Shown: in pieces, positions 932-21,593 of the stretch
Layout: the number at the start of each line of letters is the position of its first letter
Numbering within the stretch: position 1 is the stretch's first letter
From: an uncultured Lachnospiraceae bacterium
Lineage (GTDB): Bacteria > Bacillota > Clostridia > Lachnospirales > Lachnospiraceae
NCBI GenBank assembly: GCA_902790935.1
Contig: CADATP010000016.1
Location: 1-38,030 of the forward strand
Direction: 5' to 3'
DNA length: 38,030 bases
The notes under the pieces: generated by a model
The model's input: the letters and a program-made list of their open reading frames with translations, nothing else
Told to the model about the DNA's origin: nothing
Databases searched by the model: none
Translations under genes and position numbers: made by a program

Positions 932-984
932 TAAAATAACATTTTCTAAACTGTTGCGTGCGTAGGGTTCTTTCGGAGGTTTTG

Positions 985-3312
985 ATGCGAACAAGCAATA
1001 GCAAAAGAAAGTTAATAGGCCTTCTGGTGAGCAGCATTACGGATACATTTTCAATCCAGCTGATCAGAGGTGTTGTGCGTGCCGCTAAGGCTCGCGGGGT
1101 AGATGTTGTAATTTTTCCGGGGAAATATCTTGACAGAGATCTGTCTGACAGAACTGAGATCATGTATGAATATCAGTTCGCCACTCTTTTTTCATATGCG
1201 AACATTCATACCGTTGATGGGCTTATAATCTCGGCCAACAGTATCGGCTGCCATACAAATGACGAAAGGATGAGACAGTTTGTGGATGAGTATTCGGACA
1301 TCCCTTCTGTACTTGTGGCTACGCGTTTTGAAGGCCACACCTGCATTTGTTATGACAATATGAATGCTGTAAGGGAAGGCGTTGACTACCTTATTAAAAG
1401 GGAAGGCTGCAGAAAGATCTGCCAGCTTGCCGGACCGGAGTGCAATACCGATGTTATAGAGCGTCAGCAGGCGTATGTTGAAACTCTTTTATCTAACGGA
1501 CTATCCTTTAGCGAAGAAATGAGCGTAAACGGCGACTTTATGGAGTCGGATGAAACCAAGGCTGCCATGGAACAGCTTATGGACAAAAATCCTGACATGG
1601 ATGCCGTTTTTTGCCACAACGACAATATGGCGATGGTTGCCTATGAGGTCATAAGAAGCCGCGGTCTTGAACCGGGGGTTGATGTTAAGGTGCTCGGATA
1701 TGACAACGTACGAGAGAGCGCTTCTTTTGATCCGCCTCTTGCTACTATAAGCGCCGATCCTATCCTGCTCGGAGAGAAGGCTTTTAACTGTCTTGAAGAG
1801 AAGATGGACGGAAAGCAGTTTGGGGATATTACGCTTTCCGCAAAGCTTATCGGAAGAGAATCTCTCGGTCCTAAGTATGCCGAGGAAAGACGTCATCTTA
1901 TTACGGATGAAATGACCTTAAGAGAGGACTTTGCCGAAGTCTTCTACAGATATATAAATGAAAAGAGCCCCGAGGAAACGGAAGAAGTTTACCAAAAGTT
2001 CGAGGTCCTTATGAGGGCTGTACTTAAATCTCTCGGAAAACAGCTCGATCTTTCAAACACATCTGACGATATTGTCAGAAAGTTTGAAGACCTTATAAAG
2101 TCCGATGCCGTATATTATATGGATACTGAGGCGATGATAAGGTTTATAGACAGACAGGGTACAAGGTCCATCGAGGTCAGAGAATCGGATCCCGAGGGCG
2201 CTATGAGAAGCAGAGCCCTTGTTGCCGAAATCTATAAAAGACTTGTACAGGCGGTCGAAAAGCGTATGAATACCAACGAGTACCGCAAAAAGGAGATTGA
2301 CAGCCAGACCAAGAATTTCGTCAAGGAATCAATGAGCTTCAGACACGGTACTGACCAGAGCTATCAGGTGCTCCTTGAGCATTTACGCTGGGCAGGTGTA
2401 ACCGACGGATGTATTTATACCTTTAAAAATCCCATCATCCATCTCGAGGGCGAGAGGTATACACCTCCGGCCACAAACTATCTGAAGGCTTATTTACTTG
2501 ACAATAAAGTAGCAATACCCCCTACAGGTAAGCAAAAAAGACCCCTTACGGGAGGCCTTATACCGGAGGAACTTTGGGATACTCCGAAACAGATGATCAT
2601 AGCCCCCCTTTTCTTTACCGAGGAATTGTACGGACTGTTTATGTGCAATATGAGCGAGGAGCTTTTCTCGGAAGGAGAGTTCATTATTAATCAGCTCGGA
2701 GCCGCGGCGCGTATGCTCGATATCCTTAGGGAAAACGAGGAAAACCAGCAGCGCCTTGAAGATAACCTGTCCCTTGCAAACGAGATGAATGCGCAGCTCG
2801 ATACTATGTCCAGGTCCGATCCCCTTACCGGTCTTTTAAACAGAAGAGGCTTTATGGACGCGGCAAATGATTTCCTTATAAGGTCTCAAAAGGCAAGGCA
2901 GGCATGTATCGTCGGATATGTCGATATGAATAACCTGAAGGTCGTAAACGACAGGTTTGGCCATGAAGAAGGTGACTTCTCCCTTAAGAGCATTGCGGCT
3001 GTTATGGCGAAGGTGTTAAGCGGAGGTAAATCCGTCGTAGGCCGTATAGGCGGAGACGAGTTTGCTTTTATAACCGTGGGATACACTGCGGAGGCGGACG
3101 AGATCGAAGAGAAGGTTAAGTCGAATTTTATTTTGTTCAATAAATCTACGGACAAGGAGTACAACGTAACTGCTTCGATAGGTATGTATCCTATACGGGG
3201 TGGCGAAGAGATCAGCTTAGAGGATGCTCTTTCCTACGCTGACGAGGCTTTATACGTTGCAAAACAGACAAAAGACAGAAATGTCCTTAAGAACGTCAAC
3301 TCCCAAAACTGA
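985..3312 (+). CDS. Cytoplasmic substrate-binding-domain/GGDEF protein (predicted diguanylate cyclase)
   Basis: I chose the ATG at 985 because GGAGGT lies 4 bases upstream; a GTG at 958 would also be in frame. The 775-residue protein starts directly with a LacI/periplasmic-binding-type fold (about residues 8-305: KLIGLLVSSITDTFSIQLIRG, later GYDNVRESASFDPPLATI). It has no helix-turn-helix and no signal peptide. A middle region (about 310-590, partly GAF-like) leads through a short coiled coil to a GGDEF domain that begins at DPLTGLLNRRGF (612) and carries the intact GGDEF motif at 689-693. The RxxD product-inhibition site expected just before GGDEF is absent (GGKS is there). Such fusions are known in Lachnospiraceae. 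I infer that a cytoplasmic sugar-like ligand controls c-di-GMP synthesis. The gene ends at a hairpin terminator. Confidence 0.85.
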   Translation: MRTSNSKRKLIGLLVSSITDTFSIQLIRGVVRAAKARGVDVVIFPGKYLDRDLSDRTEIMYEYQFATLFSYANIHTVDGLIISANSIGCHTNDERMRQFVDEYSDIPSVLVATRFEGHTCICYDNMNAVREGVDYLIKREGCRKICQLAGPECNTDVIERQQAYVETLLSNGLSFSEEMSVNGDFMESDETKAAMEQLMDKNPDMDAVFCHNDNMAMVAYEVIRSRGLEPGVDVKVLGYDNVRESASFDPPLATISADPILLGEKAFNCLEEKMDGKQFGDITLSAKLIGRESLGPKYAEERRHLITDEMTLREDFAEVFYRYINEKSPEETEEVYQKFEVLMRAVLKSLGKQLDLSNTSDDIVRKFEDLIKSDAVYYMDTEAMIRFIDRQGTRSIEVRESDPEGAMRSRALVAEIYKRLVQAVEKRMNTNEYRKKEIDSQTKNFVKESMSFRHGTDQSYQVLLEHLRWAGVTDGCIYTFKNPIIHLEGERYTPPATNYLKAYLLDNKVAIPPTGKQKRPLTGGLIPEELWDTPKQMIIAPLFFTEELYGLFMCNMSEELFSEGEFIINQLGAAARMLDILRENEENQQRLEDNLSLANEMNAQLDTMSRSDPLTGLLNRRGFMDAANDFLIRSQKARQACIVGYVDMNNLKVVNDRFGHEEGDFSLKSIAAVMAKVLSGGKSVVGRIGGDEFAFITVGYTAEADEIEEKVKSNFILFNKSTDKEYNVTASIGMYPIRGGEEISLEDALSYADEALYVAKQTKDRNVLKNVNSQN

Positions 3313-4120: not shown

Positions 4121-6406
4121 ATGAAAAAGTGGAACAAAGCACTTGCGTCTGCTCTTGCTCTTACCATGGCAGCATCTATGATGGCCGGCTGTGGAAACAA
4201 GACAGGCCAGCAGCCCGTTGCAGTAGACGGAACTGCAGAAGAACAGACTGTTACCGAACAGCCTGCAGAAACCGAAACTCCTGCTGAAGCAGAGTATTGG
4301 TTTGGTGAGTTTGATGTTATGGCTCTTGAAGGAAAAGAGTATGGCACAGACTACGAGTCGCTTTACGATCATGTAGGAAAGGACATCACTATCGCTGATG
4401 TAACTGAGGATCCCGACACCGGATTTGCTTACATCACAGTAGACGGAGAGCAGAAGCTTCTCGGCCTTGACTTCCTTTCATTTGCAATGGTTTACAACAA
4501 CACTCCCGCCGGAGAGTACGAGACTGAGGATGAAGTATACGCTGCATGGTGGAAATATTACATCACTCGTTGGAATGCACTTCTCCCCGAGATTCCTCTT
4601 TATTCAAATGAGTACTATGATCTTTACAACGCACAGATCGGCCAGGTAAAAGAGAATCCTACAAACCCTTACTGGCAGCCTTGCTATGCACTTATCGACT
4701 GGACTTCTTCCAAGGATGATGCAAGCATCATCATCGGAAACACCACCGAAGCATCCGGACAGTTCCGTTATGCTACTTACGGAAAGTCAAATCCCGGTGC
4801 ATCTGACCACGATATCGAGATCCTTACCAGCGGTTACGAGACCGTAGCCATGAACAAGGAAGGCGGATATGAGTGGAACGATACTGTTGTAGAGTCTCAT
4901 GAAGATGTTGTTAATGAGGATGGAACTAAGACCTTCACCATCACCATCAAGAATGATCTTACCTACTCTGACGGAACTCCTATCACTGCAAAAGATTACC
5001 TTGTGTTCCCTATGGCATTCTACAGCCCTGTTGCTACTCAGGCTTCAGGACGTCAGGTAAACGGACAGACTGTAGTTGGATTTGATGATTACAACGCATA
5101 TACCGGCCCTGATTCAACTGAAGGATCTAAGGTACTTTCAGGTCTCAGACTTATCGATGATTACACATTCTCTGTAACCATTTCTGCAGACTATATTCCT
5201 TATTTCTATGATATTACTTACGCTGCATTCTCACCTGCATATCCTGCAATGTGGCTCGGCGAGGCTGATATCTTAGATGACGGCGAAGGCTGCTACCTTA
5301 CCGACAACTTCTATGAGAAGGACGGAGAGAACTACAAGACTGCAGCTATCATCAATGCTACTGCTACCGATACTTCAGAGGCTGCTTATGCTAAGTATCC
5401 TTACTCAGGACCTTACATGGTTAAGTCTTATGATGCAACCGACAGCTCTGCTGTACTTGTTAAGAACCCTAACTTCAAGGGTAACTATGAGGGAAGCGTT
5501 CCTCAGATCGAAAAGGTTATCTACAAGAAGATCGTATCCGCTACTCAGCTTGAGGACTTCAAGGCAGGCGGACTTGATCTTATCTCCGGTATTACCGGCG
5601 GCGCTGCTACCGACGAAGCACTTGCACTTGCAGATGGTTCCAACGGAGCATATGATTACATCCACTATAGCCGTGCAGGTTATGGTAAGCTTGGATTCCG
5701 TGCAGACTACGGCCCTGCTCAGTTCAGCGAAGTACGTCAGGCTATCGCTTACTGCATGAACCGTGGACAGTTTGCTAAGGACTTCACCGGTGGTTACGGC
5801 GGAGTTGTTGACGGACCTTACTACACCGGATCTTGGATGTATCAGGAAGCTGTTAAGCAGGGCATGGTACTTGATGCTTATGCTACAAGTGCTGACAGCG
5901 CAATCAAGGTTCTCGAGGATGGCGGATGGGTATATGCTGCAGACGGTTCCGAGTACACCGATGGTATCCGTTACAAGAAGATCCCCGGAGATATCATCAC
6001 CGAGGATGACAAGAACTATCAGTCTGTTGACGGTACATACAAGACTACAGAGGTTAACGGTGATTACTACATGCCTCTTGTAATCAACTGGTATGGTACT
6101 GTTGATAACGAGTTCACCGATCTTCTTCAGACCGGATTCAAGGAGAATGAGAACATTCGTACCGCAGGTATGGCTGTATACAACACCACCGGTGATTTCA
6201 GCCCTATGCTCGATGAGCTCTATCAGGCTTCTGTATACGGATACTATTCAGGATCTCCTATGTACTGCGCATTTAACTTTGCAACAAGCTTTAACTCAGC
6301 AGTATATGACTACAGCTACAACCTTACAATCGATCCTTCAATGTACGAAGATTACTCACAGTTCTATCTTAAGGACTTTGCTGATATCTACTGGATCAAC
6401 AAGTAA
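4121..6406 (+). CDS. Oligopeptide-type ABC transporter substrate-binding lipoprotein (SBP family 5), extended
   Basis: A strong AAAGGAGG site precedes the ATG. The signal peptide ends in a lipobox (MMAGC, Cys24), then an acidic, Pro/Thr-rich tether. The canonical family-5 fold starts near residue 202 (IIIGNTTEASG) and includes TFTITIKNDLTYSDGTPITAKDY (271-293). At 761 residues it is much longer than the usual ~540. Residues 57-200 form an N-terminal extension. Part of it (139-195: AAWWKYYITRWNALLPEIPL, then YSNEYYDLYN) resembles the segment normally found at the C-terminal end of this family. The real C-terminus stops soon after IDPSMYEDYSQFYLKDFAD and seems to lack that segment. Codon use is strongly biased (GGA, CTT, AAC, TTC), as in highly expressed genes. 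It captures the ligand outside the membrane for the permeases encoded downstream; peptides are the family default but are not proven. Confidence 0.88.
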   Translation: MKKWNKALASALALTMAASMMAGCGNKTGQQPVAVDGTAEEQTVTEQPAETETPAEAEYWFGEFDVMALEGKEYGTDYESLYDHVGKDITIADVTEDPDTGFAYITVDGEQKLLGLDFLSFAMVYNNTPAGEYETEDEVYAAWWKYYITRWNALLPEIPLYSNEYYDLYNAQIGQVKENPTNPYWQPCYALIDWTSSKDDASIIIGNTTEASGQFRYATYGKSNPGASDHDIEILTSGYETVAMNKEGGYEWNDTVVESHEDVVNEDGTKTFTITIKNDLTYSDGTPITAKDYLVFPMAFYSPVATQASGRQVNGQTVVGFDDYNAYTGPDSTEGSKVLSGLRLIDDYTFSVTISADYIPYFYDITYAAFSPAYPAMWLGEADILDDGEGCYLTDNFYEKDGENYKTAAIINATATDTSEAAYAKYPYSGPYMVKSYDATDSSAVLVKNPNFKGNYEGSVPQIEKVIYKKIVSATQLEDFKAGGLDLISGITGGAATDEALALADGSNGAYDYIHYSRAGYGKLGFRADYGPAQFSEVRQAIAYCMNRGQFAKDFTGGYGGVVDGPYYTGSWMYQEAVKQGMVLDAYATSADSAIKVLEDGGWVYAADGSEYTDGIRYKKIPGDIITEDDKNYQSVDGTYKTTEVNGDYYMPLVINWYGTVDNEFTDLLQTGFKENENIRTAGMAVYNTTGDFSPMLDELYQASVYGYYSGSPMYCAFNFATSFNSAVYDYSYNLTIDPSMYEDYSQFYLKDFADIYWINK

Positions 6407-6565: not shown

Positions 6566-7609
6566 ATGGGAAGATATATTGTTAAAAGAATACTTTACAT
6601 TCTGCTTGTTTTTGCAATACTGACATTCCTTCTCTTTTCGCTGTACAGGCTTATGCCCGCCAACAGAGCATACACTGATGCGAAGACGGAGATGCAGGGA
6701 CTTAAAAACAGCATTGCGGCCAGCGAGAGAGATACCAAGTTTGATGAACTGTATCTAAAGTATCAGCGTTTATACGGAACCGATACCGACAATACCGTGA
6801 TCCTGTATCTGAGATGGCTTGGTTTATATCCTTATTACGATGGAAAGCCTAACGGAATATTACAGGGCAACTTTGGACATTCCTATGAATTCAATGCTCC
6901 TGTTGTACAGGTTATCGGACCTCATATTCGAAATTCGATGATAATCGGTTTAGTGTCCGAGCTCTTTATCCTGGCAATAACAATTCCGCTTGGAATTAAA
7001 TGTGCGGTTAAGAGAAATTCGCCTTTCGACAGAGGTATACAGGCTCTGTCGCTGATCGGGTTCTCGACGCCGAGCTTTATCATTTATATTTTGTTTATTC
7101 TGTTCTTCAGCTCCATACTTGGATGGTTCCCTGTTTCGGGAATGAAAACGCCGGGATCTGATTACCACGGACTGAAGCTTGTTGTGGATACACTTTGGCA
7201 CATTGCGCTTCCTGCAATCTGCTTGATCTTCAGCGGTCTTGCTTACAATATCCGTATTACAAGAGCTTCAATGCTCGATGCGTTAAATCTTGACTGCATC
7301 AGAACAGCCAGAGCAAAGGGACTTAGCCAGAAAGCGGTTATTTACTCCCATGCCTGGAGAAACGCCCTTATTCCTCTTGTCTCAGTATTTGTAGGCGGAT
7401 TCTTCGGAATTATCGGCGGTGCTATCTTTATGGAGAGTATGTTCGGATTTAAGGGAATGGGACTTCTTCTCTTTAACTCCACCAAGACAGCTGACTATGA
7501 TCTGATCATGTTTATTCAGGTTATTTTTGTGTTTATCGGACTTGTTGCCAACCTTGTAACAGACCTTTGCTATGGGTTGGTTGACCCCAGAGTTAGAATC
7601 AGTAAGTAA
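6566..7609 (+). CDS. OppB/DppB-type ABC permease
   Basis: A 347-residue integral membrane protein starting MGRYIVKRILYILLVFAIL, the typical first helix of DppB/OppB permeases, with AAGGAG 10 bases upstream. After TM1 there is an extracytoplasmic segment (about 30-118) that includes the family pattern GNFGHSYEFNAPV (101-113). The cytoplasmic coupling loop RTARAKGLSQKAVIYSHAWR (246-265) is the EAA motif that docks the ATPases. The ending VDPRVRISK is standard. It forms half of the transmembrane channel and pairs with the RCC1-bearing permease encoded 12 bases downstream. Its length is normal, unlike its partner. Confidence 0.93.
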   Translation: MGRYIVKRILYILLVFAILTFLLFSLYRLMPANRAYTDAKTEMQGLKNSIAASERDTKFDELYLKYQRLYGTDTDNTVILYLRWLGLYPYYDGKPNGILQGNFGHSYEFNAPVVQVIGPHIRNSMIIGLVSELFILAITIPLGIKCAVKRNSPFDRGIQALSLIGFSTPSFIIYILFILFFSSILGWFPVSGMKTPGSDYHGLKLVVDTLWHIALPAICLIFSGLAYNIRITRASMLDALNLDCIRTARAKGLSQKAVIYSHAWRNALIPLVSVFVGGFFGIIGGAIFMESMFGFKGMGLLLFNSTKTADYDLIMFIQVIFVFIGLVANLVTDLCYGLVDPRVRISK

Positions 7610-7621
7610 GGAGCTAGTTTT

Positions 7622-9598
7622 ATGGAAAAGAAAAATAGAAAATCTGAAAATATTTTTCGCAAGCTGGCTCGCTGGTTTGTACGCTTTTTCATGGGTGTTA
7701 AGTACGAGGAAAAGTGGTTCAAGACAGGATCGGCCGAGTCTGATGCGGAAAACAAGATTCCGGATGATTCGGAATTCATTGTAAGTCCTGCCAAGCAGGC
7801 ATTTAAGGCATATATCGAGAGAAAGTTTGCGGTTGTTGCATTCATAGTAGTAATCCTGATGTTCCTCATAGTATTTATCGTACCGAATTTTATGACTAAA
7901 TACTCTGACTCATATACAGAGGTTACTTTAAAGAATTTGCCTCCTAACCTTTCAATGATGAGTGTCCCTTCTGAACTCAAGAATGACATTAAGTCTATTG
8001 ACAGTTATGGACCTTTCTCGGTTGGTCTTTCCAACGCCGGAAAGGTATATGTATGGGGATGCAAAAAACTTGGCGCATCCGGAATGGATGTTAATATTCC
8101 TGATGAGTATAAGGATATTAAAATGGCAATGGTTGCTGCCGGCGTTGACCATATTATCGCAATCGGCGAAGATGGCAAGATCTATGGCTGGGGAAGCGAT
8201 AGATTCGGTCAGTACGGCAGAAGCCAGAATTCTGTTGATAGTTCTGCTATAGAAGCAATGCCCGAGGAGCTTTATGAAAACGGCATCGATGTTGACCATG
8301 TTAAAAAGCTTACTTGCGGTTATCAGGCTACAGCGATCCTTATGGATGACGGAACAATCTATGTTTGGGGTAACAAGCAGACATATCCCAATATGGACAA
8401 CTTCATCGGAAGAACCGATATAGTCGATGTTGATTTTACCCTTAACTATATCGTCGGAATTGACAGCAAGCAAAATGGCGTATATACCGGTACCCGTGGT
8501 CTTTACGATATGGCAAAGACCAAGATCGGCGGAAAAGCGCAGAAGATGTTTGATTTCCTTGCAGGCAGAAAGATTACTGAAATCAATGCTACTACTTCGA
8601 GTATCTGCTTACTCCTCGATGACGGTACCATCGCTCTTACGGGAGACTTTGTTGCTGACTGCATGGAAGTACCTACTCTTGCGGAAGATGAGTACTATGT
8701 AGACATCAAGGCCGGCAACTACCACTACACGGGACTTACCAATAAAGGAAATGTTTATTCATTCGGCGGAGACCACTATTTCCAGGCTGAGGCTCCTATG
8801 GATCTTAAAAATGCAGCCAAGATCTTTGCGGGTTCATTCCAGAGCTATGCGGTTGACGCTAATGGCGATTATATGGACGCGTGGGGCTTTAGAGGATTCC
8901 CTCTCGGCTCGGATGATGTTGGTGCTAATATTTTAGAGCGTATCATTGTCGGTGGACGTATTACCATGACTGTCGGTGCGGTTGCGGTTATTATAGAGAT
9001 CATTATTGGAGTATCCCTTGGACTTATTTCCGGATACTACGGAGGATGGGTTGATATCCTTATCATGCGTGTGGCTGAGGTGTTCAGCTCGCTGCCCACC
9101 ATCCCTATTATGCTTATCCTCACATCACTCATCGCGCAGATGTCACTTACTACCAACCAGAGGCTGTTTATGATAATGGTGGTACTGGGCGTACTCGGAT
9201 GGCCGGGCTTTGCAAATATCACCCGTGCGCAGATCCTCGTTGCAAGAGAGAGTGAATACGTTACGGCTGCTCAGGCTATGGGCGTAAGAGAAAGCAGAAT
9301 TGCATTTAAGCATATTCTTCCTAACATCATTTCGGTTATCCTTGTAAGCATGACGCTCAGTTTTGCTGCAGCGATGCAGACAGAAACCGGACTTTCATTC
9401 CTTGGATTCGGTGTTAACTATCCTCAGCCCAGCTGGGGTAATATGCTTACCAAGGCCAGCAATGCTACAGCTGCTAAAAACTTCTGGTGGCAATGGGTAT
9501 TTACTTCGGGAATTCTTATTTTCGTCGGAGTATGCATCAACACCATCGGTGATACCATTCGTGATGTCATGGACCCCAAGTCCAGCAGTGACAGGTAA
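7622..9598 (+). CDS. OppC/DppC-type ABC permease with an inserted seven-repeat RCC1-like beta-propeller
   Basis: At 658 residues it is about twice the family length. TM1 is at 69-89. The region after it (about 122-425) holds seven RCC1-like repeats, each ending in a G-x-hydrophobic strand and a WG-type turn: KVYVWG (141-146), KIYGWGSDRFGQYG (186-199), TIYVWGN (245-251), GVYTGTRG (286-293), TIALTGDF (336-343), NVYSFGGDH (377-385) and DYMDAWGFRG (416-425). The last repeat runs directly into PLGSDDVGANILERIIVGGR (427-446), the conserved OppC element normally seen as PLGTDxxGRD. The rest is an ordinary OppC membrane domain with the EAA loop YVTAAQAMGVRESRIAFKHI (546-565). By topology the propeller should be extracytoplasmic. 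RCC1 propellers usually bind proteins, so contact with the SBP, the ligand or the cell wall is possible. One reading frame runs through with no frameshift, and GGAGCT precedes the ATG. Confidence 0.9.
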   Translation: MEKKNRKSENIFRKLARWFVRFFMGVKYEEKWFKTGSAESDAENKIPDDSEFIVSPAKQAFKAYIERKFAVVAFIVVILMFLIVFIVPNFMTKYSDSYTEVTLKNLPPNLSMMSVPSELKNDIKSIDSYGPFSVGLSNAGKVYVWGCKKLGASGMDVNIPDEYKDIKMAMVAAGVDHIIAIGEDGKIYGWGSDRFGQYGRSQNSVDSSAIEAMPEELYENGIDVDHVKKLTCGYQATAILMDDGTIYVWGNKQTYPNMDNFIGRTDIVDVDFTLNYIVGIDSKQNGVYTGTRGLYDMAKTKIGGKAQKMFDFLAGRKITEINATTSSICLLLDDGTIALTGDFVADCMEVPTLAEDEYYVDIKAGNYHYTGLTNKGNVYSFGGDHYFQAEAPMDLKNAAKIFAGSFQSYAVDANGDYMDAWGFRGFPLGSDDVGANILERIIVGGRITMTVGAVAVIIEIIIGVSLGLISGYYGGWVDILIMRVAEVFSSLPTIPIMLILTSLIAQMSLTTNQRLFMIMVVLGVLGWPGFANITRAQILVARESEYVTAAQAMGVRESRIAFKHILPNIISVILVSMTLSFAAAMQTETGLSFLGFGVNYPQPSWGNMLTKASNATAAKNFWWQWVFTSGILIFVGVCINTIGDTIRDVMDPKSSSDR

Positions 9599-9613: not shown

Positions 9614-10627
9614 ATGGCATTACTTGAAGTAAAAAATTTACATACATTTTTCAAAACCAAAAAGGGAATTGTAAAGGCTGTTAACGGAGTTTCATACACC
9701 CTTGAAGCCGGTAAAACGATAGGAATCGTAGGAGAATCCGGATCCGGAAAATCCATCAGTGCTATGAGTATCCTCAGACTGCTCGACAGTAACGGATACA
9801 TCGAAAGTGGTGAGATTATTTTCGACGGCAAGAGCATCGTAAACTTATCTGAGAAAGAAATGTGCCAGATAAGAGGAAATGATATCTCTGTCATTTTCCA
9901 GGAGCCAATGACAAGCTTAAACCCTGTATTCTCCATTGATAAGCAGCTCTCTGAGCCCTTTATCATCCACCAGGGGATGAGTAAGGCTGAAGCTCATAAG
10001 CAGGCACTTAAGATGCTTGAGGATGTGCAGATTCCTAACCCCAACGTTGTAATAAAGCAGTATCCTCATCAGCTTTCAGGTGGTATGCGTCAGCGTGTTA
10101 TGATCGCTATGGCCCTTGCTTGTAAGCCCAAGATCCTTATTGCAGATGAGCCTACTACAGCGCTTGATGTTACTATTCAGGCGCAGATCCTTAAGCTTAT
10201 GAATGAGCTTAAGAAGACTACCAATGCAGCTATCGTGTTCATTACCCATGACCTTGGAGTAATCAATGAGATGGCAGATGATGTTGCTGTTATGTACTGC
10301 GGACAGGTTGTTGAACATGCACCTTCTTCAGTTATTTTCCACAAACAGAAGATGAGTCACCCCTACACAGAGGGACTCATGAATTCGATTCCCAGACTTG
10401 ATGCAGAGAGTGACAGACTTGAGCCTATACCCGGTGTTGTTCCTCATCCTCTTGCGCTTCCTAAGGGATGCAAGTTTGCGCCGAGATGCAAATATTGCAC
10501 AGAGAAGTGCCTGATGGAAGAGCCGCCGCTTGTTCAGGTTGCGGAGAATCAAAAAGTAAGATGCTTCTATCCCGAGAAGGAGGTTAGGAACAGTGCAGAG
10601 CACCAAAAAATTGTTATCAATCACTAA
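9614..10627 (+). CDS. OppD/DppD-type ABC transporter ATPase
   Basis: A 337-residue nucleotide-binding subunit with all key motifs: Walker A GESGSGKS (40-47), Q-loop FQEPMTSLNP (95-104), signature LSGGMRQR (154-161), Walker B ILIADEPTTALD (174-185) and switch His212 (THDLGV). The C-terminal oligopeptide-transporter tail has clustered cysteines (GCKFAPRCKYC, then CFYP). GGAGG lies upstream of the ATG, 15 bases after the permease stop. It pairs with the OppF-type ATPase, whose start codon lies inside this gene. Unlike its partner it has no insertion. Confidence 0.95.
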   Translation: MALLEVKNLHTFFKTKKGIVKAVNGVSYTLEAGKTIGIVGESGSGKSISAMSILRLLDSNGYIESGEIIFDGKSIVNLSEKEMCQIRGNDISVIFQEPMTSLNPVFSIDKQLSEPFIIHQGMSKAEAHKQALKMLEDVQIPNPNVVIKQYPHQLSGGMRQRVMIAMALACKPKILIADEPTTALDVTIQAQILKLMNELKKTTNAAIVFITHDLGVINEMADDVAVMYCGQVVEHAPSSVIFHKQKMSHPYTEGLMNSIPRLDAESDRLEPIPGVVPHPLALPKGCKFAPRCKYCTEKCLMEEPPLVQVAENQKVRCFYPEKEVRNSAEHQKIVINH

Positions 10628-12188
10628 TTTAAAGAAATACTTTCCTGTTGCCAAAACCTCAATTTTCCAGAAGCAGCAGCTTTACGTCAGAGCAAACGAA
10701 GATATTTCTATAGATATTTATGAGGGCGAAACCCTTGGAGTCGTAGGTGAATCCGGTTGCGGTAAGTCTACATTCGGAAGAGTTGTACTTCAGCTATATC
10801 CTCAGACGGCAGGATGTACCTTATACTATGGATCGACACTTGATGAGATTACTCCTTCATATGTTAAGAAAACCATAAGAAGGTCTGAAAAGCTTAAAAA
10901 GCAGTATGATAGAGCCGTTGCAAAGGCACAGAACCTTGAAAAGAAGGTTGAAGAGGCCGGTGGAGAGGACGGAGCTGACTTTTATCTTCTTCAGGATCTT
11001 ACTATTGCGAAATGTGATGTACAGACCAAGGAAAGCAATATTGTTAAAATTCTTGGGGGCTTCTTTGTAAAGAATGACAGCGAAGGAAAGAAGCTTTTAC
11101 TTGAGATATTTGAGGCAAATAAACATCGCAACAGAATCCTCGATAAGAAGAAGACATATGACGTTGAAGTAGAGCATTTCAAGCATGAAGCTAAGATAGG
11201 TGGTTCTACTCCCGCTCTCGAGTCAAAAATCGCTAAGGCCCAGTCCAAGGCTGATTCGTTAGAAGCCGAGATAAAGAAGATCGGTGCTGAAATCGAAGAG
11301 TATCGTAAGAGACTTACGGAAGTTAAGGCAAAGTATGCCGGAGATCCCGAGTTCGAAAAGTATGATGCTATGACTGACAACGGAATTGACCTTGCCAGAT
11401 TAACATATAAAGAAATGAGGAGCCTTCGTAAGGATTTGCAGATCATTTTCCAGGATCCTTACTCAAGTCTTAACCCTCGTTTTACAGTTGGACAGATTAT
11501 CGAAGAAGGCCTCGTTACGCATAAATTCTTCAAGCATGGATCTGCTAAGCTCAGAGAGTATATAGTTGATACTATGAAGAAGTGTGGACTTCAGGAGTAT
11601 ATGCTTCATAGATATCCTCACCAGTTCTCCGGCGGACAGAGACAGCGTATCTGTATAGCTAGAGCTCTTGCTGTACAGCCTAAGTTTGTAGTTTGTGATG
11701 AATGTGTATCTGCACTGGACGTATCTATTCAGTCACAGATCATCAACCTTCTTCAGGAACTTAAGGAAAAGCAGAACTTAACATATATGTTTATTTCCCA
11801 TGACCTTTCTGTCGTTAAATTTATTTCAGACAGAATTATGGTTATGTACCTCGGAAACGTTGTAGAGCTTGCTGATAAGGAAACAATATTTGATGACCCT
11901 CGTCATCCTTATACTGTAGCGCTTCTTTCATCGATCCCTACCACAGACCCCGGATCGGCTGACAAGGAAAAGATCATTCTTGAAGGTAATATTCCCAGCC
12001 CTGTTAATCCTCCTGCAGGATGTAAGTTCTGTACTCGTTGCTATATGGCTACAGAGAAGTGTAAGAGAGTTGCTCCTCCCCTTACTGAGATTGAGCCCGG
12101 ACACTTCTGTGCTTGTCACTATCCCGACAAGAAGATTGACGAGAATAAAAATTTCCTTTTCGACGCTAAGACCACTAAGAGTAAATAA
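10593..12188 (+). CDS. OppF/DppF-type ABC transporter ATPase with a large coiled-coil insertion
   Basis: A GTG start at 10593 is supported by AAGGAGG at 10577-10583 and overlaps the OppD-type gene by 35 bases, which implies translational coupling. Motifs: Walker A GESGCGKST (52-60), Q-loop IIFQDPYSSLNP (284-295), signature FSGGQRQR (345-352), Walker B region KFVVCDECVSALD (364-376) and switch His403 (SHDLSV). In normal OppF proteins Walker A and the Q-loop are separated by about 45 residues; here they are about 225 apart. The inserted region (about 82-265) is rich in Lys, Glu and Ala with heptad-like stretches (KLKKQYDRAVAKAQNLEKKV and SKADSLEAEIKKIGAEIEEY), predicting a helical hairpin arm. 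Just after the Walker B Glu the usual Pro is a Cys (DECVSALD). Total length is 531 against about 330 for the family. The gene should still be an active ATPase, with the arm protruding into the cytoplasm. Confidence 0.92.
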   Translation: MQSTKKLLSITNLKKYFPVAKTSIFQKQQLYVRANEDISIDIYEGETLGVVGESGCGKSTFGRVVLQLYPQTAGCTLYYGSTLDEITPSYVKKTIRRSEKLKKQYDRAVAKAQNLEKKVEEAGGEDGADFYLLQDLTIAKCDVQTKESNIVKILGGFFVKNDSEGKKLLLEIFEANKHRNRILDKKKTYDVEVEHFKHEAKIGGSTPALESKIAKAQSKADSLEAEIKKIGAEIEEYRKRLTEVKAKYAGDPEFEKYDAMTDNGIDLARLTYKEMRSLRKDLQIIFQDPYSSLNPRFTVGQIIEEGLVTHKFFKHGSAKLREYIVDTMKKCGLQEYMLHRYPHQFSGGQRQRICIARALAVQPKFVVCDECVSALDVSIQSQIINLLQELKEKQNLTYMFISHDLSVVKFISDRIMVMYLGNVVELADKETIFDDPRHPYTVALLSSIPTTDPGSADKEKIILEGNIPSPVNPPAGCKFCTRCYMATEKCKRVAPPLTEIEPGHFCACHYPDKKIDENKNFLFDAKTTKSK

Positions 12189-13688: not shown

Positions 13689-14969
13689 ATGAAAATGAAG
13701 CGTTTACTTGGAGGCGCTTTGGCCGGAATCTTGGCCATCGCGATGGTTGGCTGTGGTAAACCCGCTGCAAATAACGGCGGCGCAGCAAGCGGAGAGAAGA
13801 TTTCTCTGAACATGTGGTGTATCGCAACTGAGAGTGACTCAAACCGTAAGTCCTATGAGAAGGCAATCGCTGATATGCAGGAGAAGTATCCTGATATCAA
13901 CTTCACATGGGAAGCATTTGAGAACCAGTCTTACAAGACAAAGATCAAAGCAGCAGTTTCTGCTAACGAGATGCCTGACATCTTCTTTACATGGTCATGC
14001 GCATTCCTCGGAGATTTCGTTGATGCAGGTAAGGTTTACTGCCTTGATGAAACTTATGAGAAGTATAAGGACGAGCTCCCTGAGAAGATGCTCGCAAACT
14101 CCACCTACGACGGAAAGCACTATGGTGTTCCTCTTACTATGAACATCGTTGGACTCTTCGCAAACATGGAGCTCCTCGGACAGGTAGGATATACTGAGAT
14201 CCCCGGAACCTATGATGAGTTCATCGAGTGCTGCGATAAGCTTAAGGAAGCCGGAATCATTCCTTTCGGATGTGCCGGAAAAGAGACCTGGTGCGTTACC
14301 GAGTACCTTGAGTCTGTAATCGAGAAGAGTGCAGGCGCTGATACCCTTAACTCCATCTTCGCAGGCGAAGCAAGCTGGAACAACAAGGACGTTGCTGATG
14401 CAGTAGATACCTTCCAGGGACTTGTAAACAATGGTTACTTCGATCCTTCAGGAATCGGACTTACCAACGATGAAGTTAAGAACAACTTCATGGCAGGCAA
14501 GTATGCATTCTATATGAATGGAACCTGGAACTGCGCAGACTTTGCAGCAAACGAGGAGTTCTTCCCCAAGGTAAAGGTTGGAGAGTTCCCTGTTATCAAT
14601 GCTGACAAGTCTAAGCTCGGACAGCTTATCGGCGGACCTTCAGATACCCTCGCAGTATCAGCTTCTTCACCAAACGCAGCAGCTGCAGCTGACTACGCTA
14701 TGGAGCTTGGAAAGCTTATCTGCCACTATGGATATCTTGACGGATGCGGACTTCCCGCATGGACTCCTTACGGAGACACCAGCTCTGTAAACGGACTTAC
14801 CCAGTCTGTTGCAAAGATCGTAGCTGATTCCGACACAATGGTACTCTTCGGAGATACCGCTATGAGCGCTGACTCAGCATCTACTTATCTTTCATACGTA
14901 GATCAGGTATATGGATGCCTCCTTGACGGACAGCAGTTCATCGATGGTCTTGCAAATGATATTAAGTAA
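13689..14969 (+). CDS. Sugar ABC transporter substrate-binding lipoprotein (SBP family 1)
   Basis: AAAGGAG precedes the ATG. The signal peptide ends in a lipobox (AMVGC, Cys22). The mature 400-residue protein has the family-1 layout: SLNMWCIATESDSNRKSYEKA at the start, NEMPDIFFTW about 80 residues on, and FMAGKYAFYMNGTWN in the second lobe. It should bind oligosaccharides outside the cell and deliver them to the two permeases downstream. The neighbouring xylanase/esterase makes xylo-oligosaccharides the best guess. Codon bias is strong, as in the other SBP gene, suggesting high expression. A hairpin follows it before the permease genes. Confidence 0.92.
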   Translation: MKMKRLLGGALAGILAIAMVGCGKPAANNGGAASGEKISLNMWCIATESDSNRKSYEKAIADMQEKYPDINFTWEAFENQSYKTKIKAAVSANEMPDIFFTWSCAFLGDFVDAGKVYCLDETYEKYKDELPEKMLANSTYDGKHYGVPLTMNIVGLFANMELLGQVGYTEIPGTYDEFIECCDKLKEAGIIPFGCAGKETWCVTEYLESVIEKSAGADTLNSIFAGEASWNNKDVADAVDTFQGLVNNGYFDPSGIGLTNDEVKNNFMAGKYAFYMNGTWNCADFAANEEFFPKVKVGEFPVINADKSKLGQLIGGPSDTLAVSASSPNAAAAADYAMELGKLICHYGYLDGCGLPAWTPYGDTSSVNGLTQSVAKIVADSDTMVLFGDTAMSADSASTYLSYVDQVYGCLLDGQQFIDGLANDIK

Positions 14970-15089: not shown

Positions 15090-15968
15090 ATGAAAAAATT
15101 TAAAAAAGGCTTCGCAATAGTTGTCTTTTTGCTGCCCGGTTTATTTCTCTTTATAAGTATACTGATCGCTCCTATAGCCGTTTCGCTCTACAGGAGCCTT
15201 TACGATTGGAACGGATTTTCAGAAGGAACCTTTATCGGATTTCAAAACTATGTTGAGTTATTCACCAACGGTTCTATCAAATTTATGACATCTCTGAAAA
15301 ACTCTTTAATCCTGGCAGCTTTTTCAGTCTTTGTCCAGTTGCCCTTAGCCCTTTTTCTTGCCCTTTTACTCGGAAGGAAGATCAAGGGAGACAGAGTTTT
15401 TCTTTCGATATATTTTATGCCCGTCCTTATCTCTACGGTTGTAATCGGTCAGCTCTGGCTTAAGATCTATAACCCTGACTACGGCGTATTAAACAGATTC
15501 CTTGATCTTGTTCATCTCGGAAAATTTAAACACGTTTGGGTCGGCGAAGTAGAGACTGCCCTTGGAAGTATCATCGTCCCTACGATCTGGCAGTACGTCG
15601 GTTATCATATGCTTCTTATGTACGCGGGGGTTAAAGGCGTATCAACAGATCTTCGCGAGGCAGCGATGCTTGACGGAGCTTCTAAGTGGCAGGTAGACCG
15701 CTACATTGTAATACCTGTGATCAAACCTATAATCAGGGTCAGCGTTATCTTTGCGGTAACCGGTTCCCTCAAAACATACGACCTCGTTCGAATCCTTACG
15801 GAGGGCGGACCTTACCAGAGTACGGAAGTTCCCAGTACCCTCCTCGAAAATATGCTGTTTTTAAGAAACCGCTATGGAATGGGAAGTACGATTTCGGTTA
15901 TGCTGATAGCGCTTTGCTTCGCTTTTGCAATGCTTATCACCGCAGCATTTAAGGAAAGGGAGTATTGA
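15090..15968 (+). CDS. Sugar ABC transporter permease, MalF/UgpA-like
   Basis: The 292-residue protein starts MKKFKKGFAIVVFLLPGLFLF and has about six membrane helices. The EAA loop is DLREAAMLDGASKWQVDRYIVIPVI, the site that contacts the ATPase. The sequence YDLVRILTEGGPYQSTE is typical of MalF-type sugar permeases. It forms the channel with the MalG-like protein encoded directly downstream. No ATPase gene is present in this locus, so a shared ATPase (MsmK/UgpC type) is expected elsewhere; that point is inference from this class of importers. Confidence 0.93.
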   Translation: MKKFKKGFAIVVFLLPGLFLFISILIAPIAVSLYRSLYDWNGFSEGTFIGFQNYVELFTNGSIKFMTSLKNSLILAAFSVFVQLPLALFLALLLGRKIKGDRVFLSIYFMPVLISTVVIGQLWLKIYNPDYGVLNRFLDLVHLGKFKHVWVGEVETALGSIIVPTIWQYVGYHMLLMYAGVKGVSTDLREAAMLDGASKWQVDRYIVIPVIKPIIRVSVIFAVTGSLKTYDLVRILTEGGPYQSTEVPSTLLENMLFLRNRYGMGSTISVMLIALCFAFAMLITAAFKEREY

Positions 15969-19526: not shown

Positions 19527-21593
19527 ATGAATTTAAAGACAGCATATGAGTCTTATTTTAAAATGGGCGCCGCAATATCAAGATGGAATCTGCATACAAA
19601 GGCCCACAGAAGTCTTCTTCTTTCGCAGTTTAATTCGTTTACCTGCGAAAACGATATGAAACCTATGTACTATCTGGACAAGGATGCGAACAAGGCAGAT
19701 CCCGAGAAGTACAATCTTTCGCCTGCGCTTACATTCGAGAGCGCAATTCCCTATCTGGATTTTGCAAAGGAAAACGGGATCGCTATGCGAGGACACACTC
19801 TTGTCTGGCATAACCAGACCCCGAAGTGGTTCTTTTGTGAAAACTACAATGAAATGTTCCCTATAGCGGACAGAGAAACTATCCTTGCAAGGCTTGAAAA
19901 TTACATTAAGGGCGTACTTGAATTTGTGCAGACAAATTACCCCGGGATAATCTACGCCTGGGATGTGGTAAATGAGATTGTAGACGAGGGAGATTTCAGA
20001 AAATCAATCTGGTTTAAGAGCGTAGGAAAGGATTTTTTTATTAAGGCTTTCGAATACGCGAGAAAGTATGCCGCTCCGGGAGTGGATCTTTTTTACAATG
20101 ACTACGAGAGTGCTGAGCCCTGGAAGAGGGATTTTATTATAGAGAATGTCTTGAAGCCTTTAAAGGAAAAGGGTCTTGTAGACGGTATGGGCATGCAGTC
20201 CCATCTTTTAATGGACCATCCGGATTTTGAGGATGCGAAGACTGCTCTTGAAATGTACGGAGCTTTGGGCCTTAAGATCAACATCACAGAGCTCGATATG
20301 CACAACGCGGATCCTTCCGATGAATCCATGCATGAGCTTGCTCTTCGGTATAAAAAGTTTTTTGAGATTTTTCTGGAAGCCAAAAAGTCCGGTAAAGCTA
20401 ATATCACCTGCGTAACCTTCTGGAATCTTCTCGATGAAAACAGCTGGCTTACGGGATTTAGAAGAGAGACCAGCTACCCGCTTCTCTTTAAGGGAAAGTG
20501 CGAGGCAAAGGAAGCTTACTACGCTGTACTTGAGGCCGCTGTGCCTAAGGAAGATATTGATAAGTGGGAGCCGAATTATCCGAAGGAAGATTATCTTTTG
20601 AAGGGTATGCCGGAGAGCGATAAAGTGATGTTTAGAAAGAATATCTGGGAGGAGGGCGAGTACGATTATGCCGCTTCCTACGGCTTTACTCCCGGAGTAT
20701 TTGCTTATCTTCACAAGGATTCTGAAGTAAGGGATTGTATGCTCGTTGTTCCCGGGGGCGGATACTGTATGTGCTGTTCCCATGAAGGAGAGCTTCCCGC
20801 TATGGAATTCTTTAATAGGGGAATGAATGTCTTTGTACTTTGCTACACAACGGATATTACAATGAGTGTGCCTCTTAAAAAGCAGCCCCTTGAAGATATC
20901 TCCAGAGCAGTCAGATTTATCAGAAAGTTTGCGGTTGACAGCGATGTAACCATTGGCAAGCTGCTTATCTGCGGATTTTCCGCGGGGGCGCATGTCTGCG
21001 GAAGCCTTGCGGTGCATTTTGATGATATTAAGGATAAAAATCCTGAGTATGGAAAGTATTCAAATCGTCCCGACGGAGTAATCCTTTCCTACCCTGTAAT
21101 AACCACCGGTGAGTTTACCCACAAGGATTCAGTAATGGCGCTTTTGGGAGAGAATCCACCAGCCTCGGAGCTTGAGTACTTTTCACTTGAGAAACAGGTT
21201 AAGGAAAACACCCCGCCCTGCTTTATCTGGCAAACGGAAGAAGACGGGCTGGTACCCGTAGAGAACAGCTACCTCTTTGCTATGGCTCTTCGGGAAAAGA
21301 AGATACCTTTTGCACATTACGTATTTCCTGCCGGATTCCACGGGCTGACCATAGCAAACAGCGAGTATTTCAGAGGCTGGTCCGGGGGAGAGTACTCTAT
21401 GGAACAGACTTACCGCGCAGTATTTTCCGTTAAAGACGGAAAAGGAGTTAATGTATCCGAAAAGCGTAAGGAAGAGCTTATTGAACAGTTCTTCGGCGGA
21501 AACGAACAGCCCGCCGGCGGCATCGATATGAGTCTCAAAGAGGACGTAGGCCTCTGGAGCGACCTCGCCGCCGCCTGGATGAAGAGGCTGTAG
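19527..21593 (+). CDS. Cytoplasmic bifunctional GH10 endo-1,4-beta-xylanase / alpha-beta hydrolase esterase
   Basis: The 688-residue protein has no signal peptide. Residues 1-340 are a GH10 barrel: RGHTLVWHNQTPKWF (88-102), acid/base Glu150 in WDVVNE, nucleophile Glu255 in NITELDMHN, and TFWNLLDENSWLTG near 297-310. After a linker (about 341-370) comes an alpha/beta-hydrolase of the acetylxylan/feruloyl esterase kind: oxyanion-hole motif PGGGYC (409-414), nucleophile Ser485 in CGFSAGAH, Asp573 (EEDGLVPVENS) and His605 (GFHGL). It probably cleaves imported xylo-oligosaccharides and removes acyl groups inside the cell. It ends the two-component/transporter locus. Which ester it hydrolyses cannot be read from the sequence. 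Confidence 0.93.
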   Translation: MNLKTAYESYFKMGAAISRWNLHTKAHRSLLLSQFNSFTCENDMKPMYYLDKDANKADPEKYNLSPALTFESAIPYLDFAKENGIAMRGHTLVWHNQTPKWFFCENYNEMFPIADRETILARLENYIKGVLEFVQTNYPGIIYAWDVVNEIVDEGDFRKSIWFKSVGKDFFIKAFEYARKYAAPGVDLFYNDYESAEPWKRDFIIENVLKPLKEKGLVDGMGMQSHLLMDHPDFEDAKTALEMYGALGLKINITELDMHNADPSDESMHELALRYKKFFEIFLEAKKSGKANITCVTFWNLLDENSWLTGFRRETSYPLLFKGKCEAKEAYYAVLEAAVPKEDIDKWEPNYPKEDYLLKGMPESDKVMFRKNIWEEGEYDYAASYGFTPGVFAYLHKDSEVRDCMLVVPGGGYCMCCSHEGELPAMEFFNRGMNVFVLCYTTDITMSVPLKKQPLEDISRAVRFIRKFAVDSDVTIGKLLICGFSAGAHVCGSLAVHFDDIKDKNPEYGKYSNRPDGVILSYPVITTGEFTHKDSVMALLGENPPASELEYFSLEKQVKENTPPCFIWQTEEDGLVPVENSYLFAMALREKKIPFAHYVFPAGFHGLTIANSEYFRGWSGGEYSMEQTYRAVFSVKDGKGVNVSEKRKEELIEQFFGGNEQPAGGIDMSLKEDVGLWSDLAAAWMKRL

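Follow-up and report, generated by a model that had tools for sequence, protein, structure and literature searches.

Our study revealed an OppC-type permease that carries, between its transmembrane helix TM1 and its permease core, a large domain predicted to fold as a seven-bladed propeller of the RCC1/BLIP-II type. The gene lies in a stretch of 38,030 nucleotides from an uncultured Lachnospiraceae bacterium (hereafter the window). Together with its relatives it forms a conserved group of importers, referred to here as RCC1-OppC, equipped with a propeller of a protein-binding type that is predicted to lie outside the cytoplasm; the solved Opp/Dpp chains that were found are without such a domain. 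Peptide importers supply nutrients to bacteria of the gut and soil and also bring in signalling peptides, and with RCC1-OppC the recruitment of binding proteins by a permease becomes a testable question. The window protein is an OppC/DppC permease of the type I ABC importers, as OppC_N and BPD_transp_1 are found in one chain and genes for a binding protein (SBP), an OppB permease and two ATPases adjoin it, the operon being ordered SBP-OppB-OppC-OppD-OppF. The relevant features are as follows.

4121-6406, + strand: SBP with an SBP_bac_5 domain, 761 aa, apparently circularly permuted (Pfam, HMM of relatives' C-termini)
6566-7609, + strand: OppB permease, 347 aa, the TM1-TM2 region of which corresponds to the DppB scoop (Pfam, NCBIfam)
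7622-9598, + strand: OppC-type permease with the RCC1-like propeller, whole gene, a single uninterrupted ORF of 658 aa
7820-7894, + strand: TM1 and OppC_N, residues ~67-91 (Pfam OppC_N, modelled helix 68-91, hydropathy)
7895-7987, + strand: linker joining TM1 and propeller, residues 92-122 (mean conservation 2.52 bits, against 2.08 for the propeller)
7988-8887, + strand: RCC1/BLIP-II-type propeller, residues 123-422, seven predicted blades of three strands each, at residues 123-146, 168-191, 227-250, 267-288, 318-341, 359-382 and 400-422 (Pfam, AlphaFold2, Foldseek, profile)
8888-8941, + strand: junction FRGFPLGSDDVGANILER, residues 423-440, running from the last blade straight into the permease entry motif (3.15 bits)
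8942-9580, + strand: permease core BPD_transp_1, residues 441-653 (Pfam, NCBIfam, Foldseek)
9614-10627, + strand: OppD ATPase (Pfam, NCBIfam, neighbourhood)
10593-12188, + strand: OppF ATPase, in which an insert at ~10827-11357 separates Walker A from the Q-loop (Pfam, motif spacing); the start at 10593 is the one assigned automatically in the list of ORFs

The preliminary description of this DNA had placed a complete RCC1-like propeller at 7985-8939, and this span corresponds to residues 122-440 as described. Within the protein, Pfam placed OppC_N at residues 55-108 (E 1e-6) and BPD_transp_1 at residues 463-653 (E 1.7e-31). Comparison with RCC1 profiles, as had been proposed, returned two models above their Pfam cut-offs, namely RCC1_2 (E 1.5e-25, 88.7 bits with the cut-off at 22), which matched three stretches (residues 171-197, 227-251 and 360-388), and RCC1 (E 1.4e-7, 32.4 bits against 21.7). 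The WD40_RLD model, or 'RCC1-like domain', matched in two stretches, the best at residues 122-253 (E 2.7e-30), and its 106.4 bits fall below the curated cut-off of 150, which marks the segment as related at a sub-threshold score. The best NCBIfam model, Opp4C, covered residues 426-653 only and scored 264.6 bits, under its curated cut-off of 350, so that the permease is not assignable to the Opp4C equivalog.

An AlphaFold2 model of OppC, built from 72 aligned proteins, reached a pLDDT of 85.8 and a pTM of 0.81, and DSSP assigned 21 strands, or seven times three, to residues 123-422 of the model. When pLDDT was averaged over the 30 ten-residue blocks from residue 121 to 420, 22 blocks scored 91-98 and the other eight, in long loops, 51-83, with the lowest values in blocks 201-210 and 291-300. 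Sequence models by themselves recognize only three repeats, and it is the predicted structure that gives the number seven, its seven blades forming a propeller. This agrees with the seven-bladed fold claimed in the preliminary description, for which a structure prediction of OppC alone had been suggested and which this model returned as three-stranded blades of mostly high pLDDT. The accompanying claim that the propeller is integrated in the permease, rather than appended to it, also stands, since the DYMDAWGFRG of the last blade leads directly to the PLGSDDVG motif and the junction is conserved like the permease itself (3.15 and 3.11 bits, respectively).

Comparison of the model with the PDB using Foldseek assigned the permease half to known transporter chains (8j5s_C, E 1.5e-14, TM 0.73 on target; also 8z1w_B and 8z21_B) and the propeller to BLIP-II, which ranked first by E-value (3qhy_B, E 4.4e-13) and for which a second structure, 3qi0_A, gave a TM of 0.79 on target and an rmsd of 4.1 against the predicted OppC. 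A profile of 16 relatives likewise had BLIP-II as its top match (9t9p_A, E 1.3e-47), and BLIP-II is the nearest solved propeller to the OppC domain, by profile and by model. BLIP-II is itself described as seven blades of three strands (PMC6121496) and belongs to the same RCC1 family with the same blade layout; however, it is a free, secreted beta-lactamase inhibitor, whereas the OppC propeller is embedded in a membrane protein and has other loop residues (Q235, Q407). The further propeller matches were UVR8, RPGR, HERC2 and RCC1, eukaryotic members of the same superfamily that have no membrane part and that gave a TM of 0.38-0.61 on target among the matches listed, lower than BLIP-II. On the transporter side, the window importer shares OppC_N and BPD_transp_1, OppB and two ATPases with DppABCDF and OppBCDF of E. 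coli and OppABCD and DppABCD of M. tuberculosis, but the solved OppC/DppC chains that were matched are 273-302 aa long, leaving no room for a propeller, whereas the window has ~300 propeller residues in OppC and an insert in OppF.

The propeller site is inferred to be extracytoplasmic, by homology and charge. The N-terminus of OppC is basic, with 15 Lys/Arg in residues 1-67, and is followed by one hydrophobic stretch at 60-95; a search of residues 110-425 found no 19-residue Kyte-Doolittle mean above 1.25. The TM1-TM2 regions of E. coli DppBCDF, that of DppC included, are described as periplasmic, and the corresponding region of DppB forms a scoop that enters the cleft of the SBP (PMC12136057). 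Taken with the Lys/Arg-rich N-terminus, the single TM1 and the lack of a hydrophobic stretch across 110-425, homology to DppC suggests that the propeller faces outwards, which is consistent with the location predicted earlier for residues 122-425.

RCC1-OppC was not confined to the window. A chimera, frameshift or assembly artefact was ruled out by the open ORF and by the same layout in independent genomes, and a one-off in the window genome by recurrence at family, phylum and species-wide level. Among 59 genomes compared, comprising the window's own and those of relatives, full-length RCC1-OppC was present in four of the window's genus (G000, G014, G023 and G024) and in one of another genus (G033), alongside many related importers without any such domain. 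Counting the window's own genome each time, RCC1-OppC was found in 4 of 31 genomes of the genus and in 16 of 397 genomes, representing 16 of 334 genera, of the family sample; in the phylum sample, the whole profile was matched in 14 of 398 genomes, rising to 21 of 398 at E up to 1e-30, where the extra seven match the profile partly and in other ORFs. A scan of one genome per species over 84,980 species yielded 415 stretches, 324 of which were relatives of the query, a figure that is not a fusion count because it may include ordinary OppC matching at the permease end only. The best 80 of these 324 were the loci analysed here, and their record names include Lachnospiraceae, Roseburia, Oscillospiraceae, Tissierellia, Christensenella, Solobacterium, Spirochaetales (three MAGs) and others, with isolate-like records from Hungatella effluvii, Catonella morbi, Acetivibrio ethanolgignens and Gemmiger sp. 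An120.

An alignment and Pfam scan set of 72 proteins was formed from the window and 71 of the 80 loci (leaving out L091, L098, L100, L119, L134, L137, L144, L148 and L153). RCC1_2, WD40_RLD and BPD_transp_1 were all matched in each of the 72 (Pfam, E up to 1e-3) and OppC_N in 70, and the co-occurrence of RCC1_2 and BPD_transp_1 throughout argues that the fusion is not due to chance. The protein described earlier is thus no isolated oddity, and the proposed search for other OppC proteins with both domains revealed a family spread over the Clostridia and present in Spirochaetales MAGs. A tree of the permease half (83 rows, including every second of the 80 loci, that is 40, the window and 18 further loci, with one identical row dropped and L024 absent as it had no motif) placed the 58 RCC1 rows on one side of a branch with support of 100/98 (100 % of 200 bootstrap trees), which would fit a single origin of RCC1-OppC; long branches were flagged in this tree. 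Word searches of open-access papers gave no description of the RCC1-OppC fusion, and none of the titles listed by looser searches pointed to it; domain-architecture databases may well list it. The main text of one survey of repetitive propellers that includes the RCC1/BLIPII group contains neither 'transporter' nor 'permease' (PMC9218822). Each part is known, and it is the combination of RCC1 and OppC that was not found described in the literature searched.

The operon context is equally recurrent. With operons cut by contig ends included in the counts, RCC1-OppC in the best 80 loci was adjoined by OppB in 80, SBP in 73, OppD in 75 and OppF in 70. Six of the seven loci without an SBP have a contig end no more than 1.4 kb upstream of OppC, and in the other (L105) an SBP was not found in 8.7 kb of upstream sequence. 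Three of the five loci counted as lacking OppD are on contigs that end right after OppC and the other two (L081 and L127) show OppD in their gene maps, while in the ten without OppF at most 0.9 kb remains downstream of OppC. By eye, the C-termini of the window's OppD (9614-10627) and OppF (10593-12188) display cysteines in an arrangement resembling the 4Fe-4S motif that DppD/DppF possess, and the OppD cysteine spacing of 0, 6, 13, 31 is that given for DppD Cys284/290/297/315 (PMC12136057).

A second type of insert was found at the same site. Twelve OppC proteins, designated class 2 (L010-L016 and L018-L022), have an insertion of ~200-400 residues that separates TM1 from the GTD motif; within the window's genus, such a protein is found in 11 of 31 genomes (L011-L016, L018-L022), and L010 belongs to another family. 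Class-2 OppC resembles RCC1-OppC in having a large insert between TM1 and GTD and differs in that its insert is unrelated and its permease half groups separately, the 12 class-2 rows falling on one side of a branch with weaker support (90/58). In Pfam searches of four of the 12 proteins, nothing reached its cut-off over the insert (best Profilin, E 0.0038; CBM_X2, E 0.07-0.09), and a profile of seven class-2 sequences had no similarity to RCC1 (hhalign probability 0.4 %). The idea that class-2 inserts are divergent propellers is therefore unsupported at profile level, the test being a weak one at a Neff of ~2. None of the 31 genus genomes showed both OppC types, which is not significant (~0.15 by chance with four and 11 genomes). 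The presence of a second, unrelated insert makes the OppC TM1-TM2 loop look like a repeated site for added domains, a place to which evolution adds modules. Gene maps L070-L076, which contain class-2 OppC, show an OppD of ~400 aa with an N-terminal extension.

Conservation within the propeller is concentrated on one set of loops. The domain as a whole averages 2.08 bits. The best-conserved loop type in blades 2 (3.04 bits), 3 (3.70), 6 (3.14) and 7 (3.18) is the strand 1-2 loop, which has an intermediate value in blade 1 (2.15) and low values in blades 4 (1.56) and 5 (1.86); the next hairpin scores 2.10-2.47 throughout and the inter-blade loops 1.17-1.94. In or just after the strand 1-2 loops, H177, Q235 and Y409 are found in all 72 proteins, H368 in 71 and Q407 in 65, and N408 in 68, the window protein having Ser at that position. 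The G and H of this loop are ordinary RCC1 features, so its conservation is partly structural, and it is the Gln, Asn and Tyr that set RCC1-OppC apart. The interface residues of BLIP-II include Tyr73, Trp152, Phe230, Glu268 and Trp269 (PMC10817188), all five of which map, with an offset of 39 derived here, to the strand 1-2 loop of a blade, and others listed in that source map to the loop after WG. Because BLIP-II grips its targets through the same loop position, the conserved RCC1-OppC loops would by position lie on the face that BLIP-II uses to grip proteins, and protein binding is accordingly the role we infer for the propeller, with the SBP and/or OppB as its putative partner.

The propeller might instead capture cargo directly, binding peptide, cell-wall material or an extracellular protein and concentrating it without the SBP. 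BLIP-II is a secreted binder, the RCC1/BLIPII group is mostly bacterial in one survey (PMC9218822), and the aromatic, Gln and Asn residues conserved in the strand 1-2 loops could serve such a function. However, these residues are kept across phyla while the propeller diverges about as fast as the SBP (mean distances of 1.09 and 1.06, respectively, over 67 distinct operons), a pattern that a fixed internal partner fits better, and we consider direct capture improbable.

Our tentative preference, which we would place slightly below an even chance, is that the propeller acts as a docking module at the mouth of the translocation pathway. OppC supplies one of the two permease subunits of this peptide-class type I ABC importer, and its TM1-TM2 loop, extracytoplasmic by homology, would present a closed seven-bladed propeller as a rigid protein-docking module beside the mouth. 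Its conserved loop face would engage the SBP and/or the scoop loop of OppB, so that a loaded SBP could be kept in register over the mouth and delivery favoured, in a manner functionally like the P2 region of the maltose permease MalF. P2 belongs to another transporter subfamily than the propeller, sits in another loop and has another fold. As is predicted for the propeller, it is a large extracytoplasmic region in a permease subunit: in E. coli MalF it spans residues 91-271, is periplasmic and in part contacts the binding protein MalE (PMC3150292), and in simulations it moves as a rigid body around MalE (PMC8134467). The earlier assertion of a new layout was for this reason too strong, as MalF-P2 is already a large periplasmic permease region in contact with a binding protein (PMC3150292). 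The docking reading draws on BLIP-II as the nearest propeller, on the conserved loops, on OppB (80/80) and SBP (73/80) as neighbours, on the scoop formed by the corresponding region of DppB, on the MalF-P2 precedent and on covariation with OppB. Against it stand a weak signal between propeller and SBP, the lack of conserved loops in blades 4 and 5, and the many related importers that are free of any such domain.

Covariation between the components was estimated from protein distance matrices of the 67 distinct operons, with each pair corrected for the other four components and compared to 500 permutations. Partial correlations of 0.433 for propeller-OppB, 0.300 for propeller-OppF and 0.233 for propeller-permease were obtained, none of them equalled in any of the 500 permutations, as was also the case for SBP-OppB (0.350), a pair expected to be in contact. 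The propeller-SBP value was 0.092, and 38 of the 500 permutations were as high. This test favours OppB, OppF and the permease as partners over the SBP, speaks against the SBP as the only partner and is the main evidence against SBP tethering. When OppB and the propeller were split, the partial correlations became small and unstable, with the sign for propeller-SBP changing between subsets once the propeller was divided in two, and a value of -0.437 for OppB-OppF indicates that the distance-matrix test is crude.

The same figures bear on a structural alternative, in which the propeller is a lid whose conserved face packs on the outer side of OppB/OppC, stabilizing the heterodimer or forming an antechamber, with contact to the SBP incidental. 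Such packing would account for propeller-OppB and propeller-permease correlations that exceed the one with the SBP, and a junction conserved like the permease implies a fixed orientation. The correlations are, however, as crude as the OppB-OppF value suggests and are inflated by shared ancestry, and the unrelated insert at the same site in class-2 permeases argues that no particular fold is needed for assembly. A purely structural lid is on balance unlikely, and docking at the translocation mouth is retained as the preferred reading.

OppF is also enlarged in most of these operons. The distance from Walker A to the Q-loop is 183-255 residues in 55 of the 65 complete OppF proteins of RCC1-OppC operons and 53-57 in the other ten, which are of ordinary length (336-341 aa), so that the propeller and the OppF insert are separable. 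By eye, the OppF insert is coiled-coil-like. With the insert of the window's OppF as query, 7 of 397 family genomes were matched, each of them one of the 16 that carry RCC1-OppC; further genomes of this set have a long OppF as well, too diverged for this query. DppC is described as pairing with DppF in E. coli (PMC12136057), which suggests that the OppC/OppF half of the importer carries both additions. Such an arrangement could constitute a signal module, a transmembrane 'transceptor' in which the propeller outside and the OppF insert inside report the state of the cargo or envelope. The frequency of the insert, its restriction to genomes with RCC1-OppC in the family search, the DppC-DppF pairing and the propeller-OppF correlation are compatible with this, but the ten operons with OppF of ordinary length indicate that one insert occurs without the other, and we judge a signalling role to have only a small probability.

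The SBP of the window's clade appears from its sequence to be circularly permuted, with the old C-terminus now placed before the first strand. An HMM built from the C-terminal 110 residues of the SBPs of 68 relatives (63 distinct sequences) matched the window SBP in reversed order, with model positions 49-105 at residues 134-193 (i-E 1.1e-15) and positions 1-34 weakly at residues 719-752 (i-E 0.6); the same order was observed in L052, L053, L056 and L057, and no match was listed for any of 200 shuffled copies. The bodies of the relatives' SBPs align to residues 200-748, so that residues 134-193 (4520-4699) correspond to the relatives' C-terminus, and the window SBP stops at the point at which this segment starts in the relatives. 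An assembly error is not the cause, as the permutation is common to five genomes. The structural model of the SBP (pLDDT 71.7) is silent on the permutation, since its permuted N-terminal part had no aligned rows (pLDDT ~25-65). A circularly permuted binding protein of a different SBP class, TpMglB-2 of Treponema, has been reported (PMC4990184). It is quite unlikely, though conceivable, that the OppC propeller outside and the long helical OppF insert inside work as one transmembrane unit for docking and signalling, latching the SBP, permuted in the window's clade, and gating the use of ATP, as a new sub-architecture widespread in Clostridia and present in Spirochaetes.

Two further regions of the window were annotated. 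The gene upstream of the operon (958-3312) encodes a LacI-type periplasmic-binding-like domain together with a GGDEF domain, with no DNA-binding domain in Pfam at E up to 1e-3, and a homologue is located upstream in L052 as well. Downstream, 19527-21593 encodes a GH10 glycosyl hydrolase domain and a BD-FAE domain in one protein. Neighbouring genes encode a sensor kinase (16915) and another ABC importer, with its SBP_bac_1 protein at 13689 and its permease at 15090, and the region is perhaps one for xylan use beside the peptide importer.
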